Part shown: positions 505 to 61,800 of the stretch, in pieces
Numbering within the stretch: position 1 is the stretch's first letter
How the letters are laid out: every line of letters begins with the position of its first letter
Assembly (NCBI RefSeq): GCF_003816055.1
Contig: NZ_CP033906.1
Coordinates: 1,736,001 to 1,800,000, forward strand
Reading direction: 5' to 3'
Length of the DNA: 64,000 bases
DNA from: Bacillus sp. FJAT-42376
GTDB taxonomy: Bacteria > Bacillota > Bacilli > Bacillales > Bacillaceae
The notes under the pieces: generated by a model
Told to the model about the DNA's origin: nothing
Database searches by the model: none
The model's input: only the letters and a program-made list of their open reading frames with translations
Translations under genes and position numbers: made by a program

Positions 505-1110
505 CGTTTGCTTCTTTGGGGCTGCAGGACAGGACGCCGCGCTTTTAGCAGAACTTCTATACTAGAAGCGCCCTGCGCATTTGGAATATGACGGATAAGA
601 TGTTTGTACTAAGTTTTTGCGTCTAGCTCCGGCCGCTAGCCGTTCGGCCGCTTCGCTTCTTCTGTCAGGGCAAAAAGCGCCCTTCTGTCAGAAGCTCCAC
701 CGTCTTTCACGGCTGGGCAAGCGCCCTACGCTTTAGGAGTATAACGGATAAGTGTTTGTACTAAGTTTTTGCGTCTAGCTCCGGCGCCTAGCCCCTCGAG
801 GTCATAAGCCACTCAACCTGCGAAAGGAAAAACGCCTTTCTCCGGCTGATTGTCTTATGCTTGTCGGGGGCCTGCAGGAGGCAGGTCAGTTCTGCGTTGC
901 GGCAGGACGCCGCGCACTTAGCAGAACATCCTTCCTAAAAGCGCCTCCGCTTTAGGAGTATAACGGATAAGATGTTTGTACTGAGTTTTTGCGTCTAGCT
1001 CCGGGCGCTAGCCGTTCGGCCGCTTCGCTTCTTCTGTCAGGGCAAAAAGCGCCCTTCGGTCAGAAGCTCCACCGTCTCTCACGGCTGGGCAAGCGCCCTC
1101 CGCTTTTAAT
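505..1110. repeat. Cluster of three dispersed GC-rich repeat copies
   Basis: Three diverged direct copies begin near 583, 740 and 962. Each starts with a segment like 'ACGGATAAGATGTTTGTACT' followed by 'TTTTTGCGTCTAGCTCCGG'. Copies 1 and 3 are almost identical for over 100 bases, including 'CGGCCGCTTCGCTTCTTCTG'. Copy 2 carries the 'GCCCCTCGAGGTCATAAGCC' variant and a separate internal hairpin region. No coding frame is convincing here. They lie between the divergent yjcH-like and metI genes and resemble short interspersed intergenic repeats common in Bacillus-group genomes. Confidence 0.8.
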
Positions 1111-1251: not shown

Positions 1252-1363
1252 ATTCTTATCCAGAGAGGTGGAGGGACTGGCCCTGCGAAACCTCAGCAAC
1301 CGGCAGAACGCTTTATGCGTGCCAAGGTGCTAAATCCAGCAAGCGAGCTTGGGAGATGAGAAG
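1252..1363 (+). promoter_or_regulatory. SAM riboswitch (S-box) upstream of metI-metC
   Basis: The conserved S-box aptamer core is present. P1 pairs CTTATC (about 1255-1260) with GATGAG (about 1355-1360). The 'GAGGTGGAGGGACTGGCCC' block, 'GAAACCTCAGCAACCGGC', and 'GCCAAGGTGCTAAATCCAGC' follow in order. It precedes a terminator at 1381-1413 and the methionine genes metI-metC. S-box RNAs bind S-adenosylmethionine and end transcription when methionine is plentiful. The 'GAGAAGAAG' 3' of the aptamer can pair with 'CTTCTTCTT' of the terminator, giving the antiterminator. Confidence 0.95.
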
Positions 1364-14323: not shown

Positions 14324-14434
14324 CTCTCTTATCTGTCAGCGTAATCGCTGCAAGAATTAGCACCGTATTGACCATGGTCAACCGGTTGCCGGGCTTCATA
14401 GGGCTTGTCCCTCCGCCTGCTCTTGATAAAAGAG
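14324..14434 (-). promoter_or_regulatory. SAM riboswitch (S-box) upstream of the M14 peptidase
   Basis: On the minus strand: P1 CTCTTTTATC (14425-14434) pairs with GATAAGAGAG (14324-14333). Between them are 'GGCGGAGGGACAAGCCC', 'ATGAAGCCCGGCAACCGG', and 'ACGGTGCTAATTCTTGCAGC', the conserved S-box blocks in the right order. A terminator and the peptidase gene follow within 80 bases. The peptidase is therefore predicted to be turned on when SAM is low. Confidence 0.9.
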
Positions 14435-28345: not shown

Positions 28346-28720
28346 ACAAATAAAAGTGGCCGAGACATAACAAAATGAATGATCCACAAAAACGAATCCT
28401 AGTGGTAAATAGAATGCCTTTCTCATTGCCATGGTTGTGTTTTCATAAGGTAAGCCGTTCCATTACGCTGCAGACACTCGCTTTCCGCGGGGAGGAAGCT
28501 GAGCCTCCTCGGCTGTGCCTGCGGGGTCTCAGACTTTCCTCTACTTCCCGCAGGAGTCGAGAGCCTTCCGCTTCATTCCACTAGGATTAAAACAGGTAAA
28601 ATGTTAAAATCCTTAAAGAAAATACAAACAAAACCCGAACGATAAGGCGATCAATTCATGAACCTCTTGCCATATCATTCGGGTTTATCATGGGCTTAGA
28701 AACTTCCGTCCTAGTCTCTT
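28346..28720. repeat. Intact copy of the split dispersed repeat (reference for the IS target)
   Basis: It has a 'GGCCGAGACATAACAAAATG' edge, then 'GAATGATCCA', and a GC-rich core with 'GCTTTCCGCGGGGAGGAAGC' and 'CCTCGGCTGTGCCTGCGGG'. A long terminator-like hairpin bounded by AAACCCGAACGATA and TATCATTCGGGTTT follows (about 28632-28688). Related copies are at 52545-52752 plus 54386-54550 (interrupted by the IS, opposite orientation) and 61500-61790. No gene. The uninterrupted core shows the pre-insertion sequence of the IS site. Confidence 0.8.
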
Positions 28721-45029: not shown

Positions 45030-45235
45030 CCTGCTTTTATAGGAAGAGCTCTGCTAAACTTGGCTGTTGATTGCAGCTAGCAGGCGATCGCTTATCCTTG
45101 GGCGGGCGGTGAGCCTCCTCCTGGCTTCGCCACTGCGGGGCCTCACCTGTCCCGCTGCTATGGCCTTCCGCTCCAATCAACAGGTGTGAAAAATCAACAA
45201 CATTCATTAACATAGCCATAGGAAGAGCTCTGAAT
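45030..45235. repeat. Dispersed repeat inserted inside the sugar ABC operon
   Basis: Left end 'AACTTGGCTGTTGATT' (45057) and right end 'AAAAATCAACAACATTC' (about 45189) match the copy at 34010-34150. The GC-rich core has 'CGGGCGGTGAGCCTCC' and 'CCTCACCTGTCCCGCTGC'. 'ATAGGAAGAGCTCTG' occurs on both sides (45039 and 45217), like a duplicated flank. It separates the binding-protein gene from its permeases. Confidence 0.7.
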
Positions 45236-52544: not shown

Positions 52545-52752
52545 AGAGGTTGGGACAGAAGTATCTAAGCCCATGATAAACCCGAACAATTAGGCGAGAG
52601 GTTCATGAATCGATCGCCATATCGTTCGGGTTTTGTTTGTATTTCCTTTAAGTATTGTACATTTACATGTTTTAAACTAGTGGAATGAAGCGGAAGGCAC
52701 TCGACTCCTGCGGGAAGCAGAGGACGCTTAAGACCCCGCAGGCAAAGCCGAG
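52545..52752. repeat. Left half of the dispersed repeat interrupted by the IS
   Basis: It begins 'GAGGTTGGGACAGAAGTAT' and has the AAACCCGAACAATTA/CGTTCGGGTTT hairpin (about 52578-52634) and the core 'GACTCCTGCGGGAAGCAGAG'. It ends at GCAAAGCCGAG (52752), where the element starts. The other half resumes at 54386 with GAGGCTCAGC. Confidence 0.85.
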
Positions 52753-52869
52753 TTATCATGAACGAAACTAGCCCCTTACTCGTAAAATCGTAGGTTGATT
52801 TGGTTAGACTGTTTTTGTCAAACAAAACAAAACCAAATCAGAGCTACATTACGGAAGGAGCTAGCTATT

Positions 52870-53982
52870 ATGCAGGATACCATTAAATACGTAGGTTTAG
52901 ACGTATCAAAAGAAAATATTGCCGTTGCGGTCGCAGAAGAAGGACGGGAAGCACCGAGATACTGGGGGGTCATTCCTCATACGCCTGAAGCCGTGAAAAA
53001 ATTGATGAAGAAGCTGGGCAGCCCAAAGTCCCTTCGTGTCTGTTATGAAGCCGGTCCTACCGGATATCCGTTATACAGACTATTACTAACATTGGACATT
53101 CATTGTTCGGTGATCGCCCCAACTCTTATTCCGAAAAGGCCTGGAGATCGAATTAAAACCGATCGCCGAGACTCTGTTCGTCTGGCTCAATTATATCGGG
53201 CTGGGGAGTTAACGTCCGTTTATGTTCCTACTCCAGAAGACGAAGCCCTTCGGGATCTGGTACGTTGCCGGGAAGATGTGAAAGAGGATGAGTTAAGGGT
53301 GAAACACCGGTTAAGCAAATTTTTACTACGCAACGATATTAAGCCACCGGCAGGTGTAAATAAGTGGACCACCAAGTACTTCAGATGGCTGGATACCCTT
53401 CATTTTGAAAATTCTTCTTTGCGGGTTACGTTTCAGGAGTACTATTATCAGCTTAAAGAAATCGGTCAAAGACTCTTAAGGCTGGAAGAAGAAATTCGGG
53501 TTCACTCAAATGAAGGGGTACATGCTCTGAAAATTCAGGCCCTCCAATGTTTGAGAGGTGTTGCCCTTGTCACCGCCTCGAGTGTTGTGGCAGAAATAGG
53601 TTCGTTTAAACGGTTCCCAACCCCTAATCACTTCATGGGATATGTCGGGTTGATTCCAAGCGAATATTCGAGTGGAGAAAGCAGACGGCAAGGAAATATA
53701 ACCAAGACAGGAAATCGGCATGTACGACGGTTATTGGTCGAAGCCGCTTGGAGTTACCGATATAAGCCTGCGGTTAAAGGAGAATTGGCACGAAGACAAA
53801 GTGGACAATCTCCGACCATTCAGTCCATATCCTGGAAAGCACAAAATCGCCTTCATCAAAAGTATTACCGCTTACTATCCAGAGGAAAAGAGAGCAGTAA
53901 AGCCATAACAGCTGTAGCGAGAGAGTTAGCTGGTTTTATTTGGGCCGTGATGCAAGAAGTCGAAGATGTCCCAGAATCGTAA
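52870..53982 (+). CDS. IS110/IS1111 transposase (DEDD recombinase)
   Basis: 370 residues from ATG 52870, GGAAGGAG upstream. The N-terminal RuvC-like DEDD domain has 'YVGLDVSKENIAVAVAEEG', 'VCYEAGPTGYPLYRL' and 'RIKTDRRDSVRLAQLYRAGE'. The C-terminal Transposase_20 domain has 'MGYVGLIPSEYSSGESRRQG' and 'ITKTGNRHVRRLLVEAAW', with the candidate serine nucleophile. It is full length and apparently functional. Such proteins are guided by a structured RNA from the element. Confidence 0.92.
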   Translation: MQDTIKYVGLDVSKENIAVAVAEEGREAPRYWGVIPHTPEAVKKLMKKLGSPKSLRVCYEAGPTGYPLYRLLLTLDIHCSVIAPTLIPKRPGDRIKTDRRDSVRLAQLYRAGELTSVYVPTPEDEALRDLVRCREDVKEDELRVKHRLSKFLLRNDIKPPAGVNKWTTKYFRWLDTLHFENSSLRVTFQEYYYQLKEIGQRLLRLEEEIRVHSNEGVHALKIQALQCLRGVALVTASSVVAEIGSFKRFPTPNHFMGYVGLIPSEYSSGESRRQGNITKTGNRHVRRLLVEAAWSYRYKPAVKGELARRQSGQSPTIQSISWKAQNRLHQKYYRLLSRGKESSKAITAVARELAGFIWAVMQEVEDVPES

Positions 53983-53989
53983 AAAGATG

Positions 53990-54368
53990 TCGTGATCCTG
54001 ACGTGTTGTAGACCGATTCAAAATAGAATAGGGAGAATAGGGCTCGAAGGCAAAGAGTAAAACCGGAAAGGAAAATCCACGCGCCTCCTCTGTGCTAGTC
54101 CCATGTGGATGAACGCACGTCCCGAGTTTGTGGAAAAGTCCTTTATACGGAAAGATAAAATGTGAGAACCCACGAATATCAGAGTGCTAACCGCCGTTGA
54201 AATTTTTGCCTTCGTGCCTTGTCCTTCCTGTCTATTCTATAAACAAGAAAGGAATTATATTCAGTCGCTGCCTGTCAAATAAAACACAAAAAAAGAAGCG
54301 AAATACGCTTCTCTTCTTAAAGCTGTTCAAAAACAAAGTAAAACATTAGGTTGCAGGGGGCCCTTGAA
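53990..54368 (+). ncRNA. Candidate seekRNA/bridge RNA region of the IS
   Basis: The 3' noncoding part has a stem ATCCAC/GTGGAT (54075-54080 and 54105-54110) enclosing a 24-base loop. Within the loop, GCCTCCTC (54083-54090) is exactly the reverse complement of GAGGAGGC, the target sequence that spans the insertion junction in uninterrupted repeat copies. IS110/IS1111 elements are known to use such loops as target guides. The extent of the RNA is not determined. The strand is assumed to be that of the transposase. Confidence 0.6.
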
Positions 54369-54385
54369 AGTTTCGTTCATATCAG

Positions 54386-54550
54386 GAGGCTCAGCTTCCT
54401 CCCCGCGGAAAGCGAGTGTCTGCAGCGTAATGGAACGGCTTACTTGATGAAAAAACAACATTGGCTACGAAAAATGCATTCTATTCAAAGGGCAGAAGAA
54501 TGGAAATAGAATCCGTTTTTTGGATCATTCATCTTGTTATGTCTTGGCCC
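54386..54550. repeat. Right half of the interrupted dispersed repeat
   Basis: GAGGCTCAGCTTCCTCCCCG continues the repeat core broken at 52752. The remainder ('GCAGCGTAATGGAACGGC', 'ATTCATCTTGTTATGTCTTG') matches the reverse complement of 28356-28500. Confidence 0.85.
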
Positions 54551-61499: not shown

Positions 61500-61800
61500 T
61501 TCACTTAAAACGAGACTGGGACATAAGTATTTCAGATAATGAAAAACCCGAAAGATCAGGTGGATTTAAGTAACTCATTCCTGTAATCGTTCGGGTTTTT
61601 ATTTGGTTTAAGAAGAGTTTATTCTTCCTAAGAATCGTATCCCGTAGTGGAATGGAGCGGAAGCCACTCAACTCCTGCGGGAAGTAGAGGACGCTTAAGA
61701 CCCCGCAGGCGCAGCCGAGGAGGCTTAAGCCTTCCTCCCCGCGGAAAGGGAGTGGCTGCAGCGCAATGGAACGAACTTGTTTCTTCAGTATAACTCATTC
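61500..61800. repeat. Dispersed repeat copy, same family as the IS target
   Basis: 'GAGACTGGGACATAAGTAT' start, AAACCCGAAAGATCA/CGTTCGGGTTT hairpin (about 61547-61600), then 'ACTCCTGCGGGAAGTAGAGG', 'CGCAGCCGAGGAGGCTTAAG' and 'CCTCCCCGCGGAAAGG'. Orientation as the copy at 52545. It shows the uninterrupted GCCGAG-GAGGCT target. Confidence 0.85.

Follow-up and report, generated by a model that had tools for sequence, protein, structure and literature searches.

An insertion sequence of the IS1111 type in Bacillus sp. FJAT-42376 almost certainly moves by guide-RNA-directed recombination, judging from the agreement between predicted RNA guides and insertion targets in this element and its relatives. 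The element interrupts a dispersed repeat of its host chromosome, and the RNA predicted behind its transposase gene matches both halves of that repeat as well as the ends of the element itself. The analysis covered a window of 64,000 nucleotides (G000:C1:1736001-1800000) from a complete 4.25 Mb chromosome, and the features found in it are collected in Table 1.

Table 1. Features of the element, its predicted RNA and its target repeat, in window positions.
Feature	Position	Strand	Basis or remark
Whole IS1111-type element	52751..54383	+	7 bp/3 bp end rule (PMC11187229), ends and flanks, empty paralogous site
Left half of occupied target repeat, ends GCCGAG	52747..52752	+	Flank reading, empty-site comparison
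Core AG and right target half AGGAGGCT	54384..54391	+	Flank reading, empty-site comparison
Left subterminal inverted repeat ATGAACGAAACT	52758..52769	+	12 bp
Right subterminal inverted repeat AGTTTCGTTCAT	54369..54380	+	12 bp
DEDD transposase/recombinase gene, 370 aa from ATG	52870..53982	+	ORF; PF01548, PF02371, NF033542
Predicted seekRNA/bridge RNA	54040..54218	+	Outer stem conserved in A1 and A2
RNA outer stem	54040-54056 with 54202-54218	+	
CCAC, 5' arm of target-loop closing stem	54077..54080	+	Pairs with GTGG 54130-54133
Putative target guide T GCCTCCTC	54083..54090	+	Complementary to top strand of G-AG-GAGGC
Hairpin TGTGC 54091-54095 / GCACG 54115-54119, between guides T and B	54091..54119	+	Two-sided changes (34 RNAs, A2)
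Putative guide B CCGAG, other target half	54122..54126	+	Matches across relatives
Putative donor guide GATAA	54154..54158	+	Complementary to left end TTATC
Donor hairpin stem TGTG / CACG	54161-54164 / 54171-54174	+	
Putative donor guide ATATCAG	54176..54182	+	Identical to right end plus core
TTGAAA, -35-like hexamer	54363..54368	+	17 bp from TATCAT only with ends joined as circle
Uninterrupted target repeat	28510..28526	-	
Uninterrupted target repeat	45120..45140	-	
Uninterrupted target repeat	61701..61725	+	

The ends of the element can be written as in Table 1 or as 52753-54385, because the core AG is shared. The latter bounds had been given in an earlier, sequence-only reading of the window and are right: when the joined flanks are aligned with a paralogous repeat that lacks the element (L080, G000:C1:1270050 onward), no gap appears at the junction, and target duplication is absent. 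A paralogous repeat served as the empty site because the matches in relatives of the genus, three of which have the upstream gene at 85-86%, stop at query base 636, before the repeat. The subterminal inverted repeats (sTIRs), at 12 bp, have the length usual in the IS1111 family (about 11-13 bp), and outside them the element has extensions of 7 bp on the left (AGTTATC) and 3 bp on the right (ATC), as the IS1111 end rule describes. Its transposase matches both IS1111 domains above their cut-offs (PF01548 at 64.1 bits, PF02371 at 80.4 bits) and scores 261 bits, against a cut-off of 140, with NF033542, the NCBIfam entry in which the protein family is already named an IS110 family RNA-guided transposase. 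The C-terminal motif GL-P----S(T)G of IS1111 transposases (Siddiquee et al., 2024; PMC11187229) is present in the translation as GLIPSEYSSG. An upstream TTG start would lengthen the protein to 395 aa. The longer non-coding part lies downstream of the transposase gene, as in the IS1111 family; it measures 401 nt when counted from where the coding match stops through the right sTIR, against 112 nt 5' of the ATG.

The site occupied by the element is GAG^GAGGCT (the caret marks the junction) inside the dispersed repeat. That the target is a dispersed chromosomal repeat, as had been proposed, is borne out by the genome, in which the core pattern CCCCRCAG-N4..22-GAGGAGGCT occurs in 50 exact copies (20 forward and 30 reverse), while the reversed control pattern gave 0. 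The three uninterrupted repeats of the window each lie between ORFs of at least 120 aa, and an empty repeat of 137 nt folded as DNA gave a z of -2.9. The target word is thus a dispersed and mostly intergenic-looking repeat that offers the element many permitted sites. That the element hops between repeat copies without damage to genes stays an inference, because the genome has few copies of it: a single full one, one that is 3'-truncated, and a left-end remnant at 70%. The truncated copy (L002, G000:C1:57653-58750) is 100% identical over bases 1-1098 and has the left flank GGCGAG, and it is missing the last part of its transposase gene together with the entire RNA. On the far side of this deletion stands AGAGGCTCACCGCCC, from the same kind of repeat as the target. 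A plasmid search returned two weak partial matches and no near-identical element. The target repeat is itself a piece of a unit of about 200 bases (window 52578-52633 and 61542-61600) that begins with a GGGACA-like sequence and contains a hairpin ending in CGTTCGGGTTT; this unit has many matches in the genome.

The first sign of a guide was an octamer in the 3' non-coding region, where ATCCAC (54075-54080) and GTGGAT (54105-54110) enclose 24 bases. The loop word GCCTCCTC is, as first described, the exact reverse complement of GAGGAGGC, and the latter does span GCCGAG^GAGGCT in two uninterrupted repeats, near 28510 (-) and 61717 (+); a third repeat, near 45120 (-), also contains it. The octamer occurs seven times in the window, namely in the three repeats, once in the loop and at three places elsewhere (18615, 48149 and 56222), where base composition predicts 1.4. 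With uniform bases, the chance that some junction-spanning octamer falls in a 24-base loop is about 0.4%. The octamer match alone is weak evidence, and the window by itself leaves a chance match possible; the match stands above chance once relatives are compared, and on their guides and targets the chance explanation was rejected.

The structure around the guide differs from the one proposed at first. The hairpin ATCCAC/GTGGAT forms all six pairs in this copy, whereas the remaining 17 rows of alignment A1 have between 0 and 4 of them; its second arm is unconserved and the single-sequence fold favours another pairing, so it was rejected as a functional structure. The stem CCAC/GTGG, by contrast, keeps all four pairs in 17 of 18 A1 rows and three of four in the remaining row. 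In the predicted fold the guide is therefore placed in an internal loop bounded by CCAC/GTGG and TGTGC/GCACG rather than in a 24-base hairpin loop, with guide T on the 5' side and guide B on the 3' side. This is the guide order of IS1111, in which the complement of the top strand lies 5' of the complement of the bottom strand, and the two guides overlap at the core, as in the target loop of a bridge RNA. Of the 53 pairs in A1, 13 have two-sided changes; in A2 the figure is 21 of 35. The single-sequence fold gave z values of -3.6 for the predicted RNA and -5.3 for 53983-54260. No Rfam model at gathering score overlaps the predicted RNA, the five matches in the window all lying elsewhere. Model R1 of the RNA had six matches in the genus, each beside a transposase copy or, in G076, at a contig edge, and no orphan guides were found with it in six genomes of the genus. 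Between the RNA and the right end, the minus strand has a terminator-like hairpin with a T tail (window 54287-54319).

A second loop matching the ends of the element, which had been suggested as a further check, exists downstream of the target loop. The right donor guide is full, as described for bridge RNAs, whereas the left is incomplete in the window element, GATAA being followed by AA and not by the core CT; exceptions occur elsewhere too. Relatives with the end TTATC have GATA in the RNA, except L047 (GAGAG). Four RNAs (L060, L062, L063 and L070) have CATAA/ATAGCAG where the ends are TTATG/AGCAG, and L052 has TATGACT with the end AGTCATA, although in most elements with this end the match is only partial. 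The right end and the RNA differ by one or two bases in L013, L042, L043, L057 and L068.

The relatives came from three taxonomic levels (family, 80 genomes; order, 397; class, 398) and from one contig scan, whose seven loci added no target class to those of the genome search except L022. Among the resulting 73 loci, 72 have a transposase match; both ends were read in 52 of these, and the 20 without an end pair were excluded. Three of five copies were read in G082 and two of five in G385. The 52 two-ended elements amount to 47 distinct insertions, of which 19, spread over 11 genomes by their locus handles, carry GCCTCCTC in the non-coding region. In a comparison that had been proposed beforehand as a refuting test, all 19 of these distinct insertions were located at GAG^GAGGCT, and all 19 point the same way with respect to the target word. 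An element of G076 that is split between contigs and stands outside the 19 also fits, with GGCGAG on one contig and GAGGCT plus the guide on the other.

Relatives with other loops, whose identities to the window transposase are given here in brackets, sit at targets that match their own putative guides. Namely, L032 (75%) has GGTCCCTT and ACAAG at ACAAG^GGACC, L033 (74%) has AGTTGCCCTT and TATAAG at TATAAG^GGCAACT, L022 (73%) has AATTGTACTT and TTAAG at TTAAG^TACAATT, and L037 (68%) has GTTTCACTT and TATAAAG at TATAAAG^TGAAAC. Closer to the window target are L047 (70%), with GCTTCCTC and CCCGAG at CCCGAG^GAAGCT, and L031 (73%), with GCTTCC (followed by a mismatch) and CCTGAG at CCTGAG^GAAGCT. 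The match was compared with shuffled pairings in 51 elements (L044 excluded), which represent 34 different RNA regions and, on the right side, 22 different target words; the loop windows were chosen after inspecting where matches fall. For the right guide, the longest matches to the own target sum to 146 over the 22 targets, compared with a maximum of 108 in 100,000 shuffles, and the mean is 6.6 of 8 for own targets versus 3.6 across the 462 other pairings. The left-side guide, with 26 distinct words, reached 133 against a maximum of 116 in shuffles. This covariation strongly supports the reading of the loop words as guides and upholds the original proposal that the element encodes one for its target.

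Matching is poor for three of the 22 right-side targets (L070 with 3 of 8, L042 with 4 and L043 with 5). The altered right end of L042 (ATAAG) suggests a rearranged right flank, and L070 appears to have the RNA of L060 yet another right flank. In L057 and L068 (G811) the right junction carries AA instead of the expected AG, and the L057 guide matches AACGGGC; the core may therefore vary in this branch. Matching of the left half is loose, as in G077, where the guide CCCGAG is found with GGCGAG, CAAGAG and CTGAG.

We also looked at the targets of relatives as repeats of their hosts. GAGGARGCT repeats were searched in 12 genomes, with positions listed for some of them, and 11 of the 12 hold them; G402 has one and G086 none. 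In G402 the target GGGACAAGGGACC occurs 48 times, against 0 in four other genomes. GATAGTGATC was counted 112 times in G724, with 3 and 5 occurrences in two other genomes; many of those in G724 form pairs on opposite strands, spaced 15 bases, so that the repeat units number fewer. In a further search, the empty sites of 15 more segments were compared with genomes, with at most 30 candidates scored per genome and L040 left out for too little flank. Among the matches listed, junction-spanning copies in the own host number at least 42 for L031 (G195), 21 for L041 (G324), 16 for L037 (G321), seven for L033 (G086), three for L022 (G821), and one each for L012 and L057, and none are found for L039, L042, L043, L052, L053, L054, L060 and L063. 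All 20 repeats fetched from G195 read GAAGCT, having been picked as best matches to a GAAGCT query, and the exact searched word is present in 4 of 7 fetched repeats of G086, 7 of 7 of G321 and 1 of 3 of G821. The L033 repeat also occurs in G324 and G255, and 'resident' is therefore a better description than 'exclusive'. For G051, 35 GAGGARGCT places were listed, three of them within element copies and the other 32 comprising 19 GAAGCT and 13 GAGGCT; all three insertions in this genome are at GAGGCT. Each of these three elements (L008, L014 and L017) contains a copy of the target repeat within its 3' non-coding region, some 375 bases past the transposase, which suggests that the target repeat itself can move.

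There is an even chance that the lineage retunes both target guides to a dispersed repeat of its host while the RNA scaffold and donor loop are kept. Such retuning would track even a one-base variant of the repeat, with the guide GCCTCC for GAGGCT and GCTTCC for GAAGCT. The guide pattern could also be real and the fit to repeats a matter of survivorship, if elements were retargeted to any sequence and only harmless landings in multi-copy sequence persisted, an account that we credit and doubt in equal measure. Elements at 55 to 63% identity, which often sit at targets not showing as multi-copy, fit survivorship, as do the matches listed in the empty-site search, where eight of 15 segments have no junction-spanning second copy and two have one; clear repeats among the more distant elements were seen just in G724 and G324, most targets having no repeat among the matches listed. 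Against it, all six target classes of elements with at least 68% transposase identity and both ends read are multi-copy repeats in the host, in what is a small sample, with L022 thinly supported and with GAAGCT and GAGGCT taken together in G385. Should retuning be true, the guide RNAs would be a readable record of host repeat families.

Recognition of the repeat by protein alone, with the RNA octamer a coincidence, is very improbable. One matching octamer could too easily arise by chance to argue against it, and GGAGG-like words are common; however, differing guides go with matching, differing targets in both halves beyond what 100,000 shuffles produced, and transposases of 70 to 83% identity are found at different targets. 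Homologous recombination between repeats, or carriage with a repeat copy, is scarcely credible as the way in which the element came to its sites. The repeats are long and similar enough for copies to recombine, but the flanks differ among copies in one genome (four in G077, three in G051), relatives sit at unrelated repeats with the same junction geometry, and the flanks and the empty repeat agree up to the exact junction.

Guide-directed recombination of the element would begin with its excision as a circle, in which the joined ends read TTGAAA-17 bp-TATCAT, a putative promoter for the transposase gene and the RNA behind it. Relatives mostly have TTGACA in this position, and a promoter-like pair at 17 or 18 bp was found across the joined ends in all 47 listed distinct insertions, the 18-bp spacing being that of L052, L053, L057 and L068 (by eye). 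No promoter-like site turned up when the integrated stretch 53900-54420 was scanned. The RNA would then fold into a target loop and a donor loop, as its conserved fold indicates. Flanking the shared core AG, the target loop is predicted to pair with both strands of the dispersed repeat, GCCTCCTC with the top strand of GAGGAGGC and CCGAG with the bottom strand, in line with the covariation across relatives. The donor loop would pair likewise with the element's own ends, given the matches and partial covariation described above. Finally, the DEDD recombinase would exchange strands at AG, by a chemistry presumed from work on IS621 and ISEc11, and the element would enter in one orientation and without target duplication, as observed.

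Much of this is established for related elements. Published work (PMC11187229; PMC11208160) already covers the mechanism, where the RNA lies in IS1111 elements, the targeting of REP sequences and natural reprogramming, and the element is a new natural example of a known mechanism, not a new mechanism. The description of the IS1111 members ISEc11, ISKpn4, ISPst6 and ISPa11 and their seekRNAs (Siddiquee et al., 2024; PMC11187229) agrees with ours in the DEDD transposase, sTIRs, 7/3 bp extensions, long 3' non-coding region, order of top- and bottom-strand complements and absence of target duplication. That account also reports ISPa11 at the dispersed palindromic repeat REP and natural reprogramming of ISEc11 and ISXne4. 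Co-purification of the RNA with the transposase, and a need for it in transposition, are further marks of the IS1111 family. Our element differs from those it describes in its target, a Bacillaceae repeat, and in its transposase of 370 aa rather than 330-350 aa, a range given there as typical with no stated requirement; donor-loop matches are visible here, whereas the account stresses a short seekRNA with target matches. The bridge RNA of IS110/IS621 (Durrant et al., 2024; PMC11208160) likewise has two loops with two guides each that overlap at the core dinucleotide, which on the RNA strand here is CT, a likeness known here from sequence alone. As described in that work, IS1111 members are predicted to carry the RNA in the right end, and REP targets of IS621 are noted; compared with IS621, our element has the RNA in the 3' and not the 5' end, and longer sTIRs. 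The closest solved structures by sequence, the transposases of IS621 (8wt6) and ISCro4 (9t56), match the window transposase with E of about 5e-10, the match being confined to about 93 residues of the C-terminal part. Specific insertion in dispersed palindromic REP sequences by IS elements including ISPa11 was reported by Tobes and Pareja (2006; PMC1525189), in Gram-negative genomes as that report presents them and at a time when the RNA guide was not known.

From their sequences only, the relatives provide a set of naturally occurring pairs of guide and target for a compact recombinase that is guided by RNA in Bacillaceae. They point to natural reprogramming over a short evolutionary distance, with transposases 70-83% identical and an almost unchanged scaffold, and their guide-target pairs should be useful for pairing rules and mismatch tolerance. 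The data also suggest that resident dispersed repeats steer the evolution of the guides.

Two sets of minor observations were made along the way. The L041-type target, which we take to resemble the integron attC core (TTCAAC...GTTGAA), recurs in series in L084 (G324:C24:1-12000) and L085 (G255:C1:2008000-2027000). L084 holds many small ORFs on one strand (with Nudix, phosphotransferase and cold-shock domains), and L085 also carries a serine recombinase (PF00239, PF07508); these series may represent a cassette array that belongs to a different class of recombinase. Within the window, the Rfam matches include two SAM riboswitches and one Bacillaceae-1 RNA, at 1253-1362 (+), 14326-14432 (-) and 871-937 (-).
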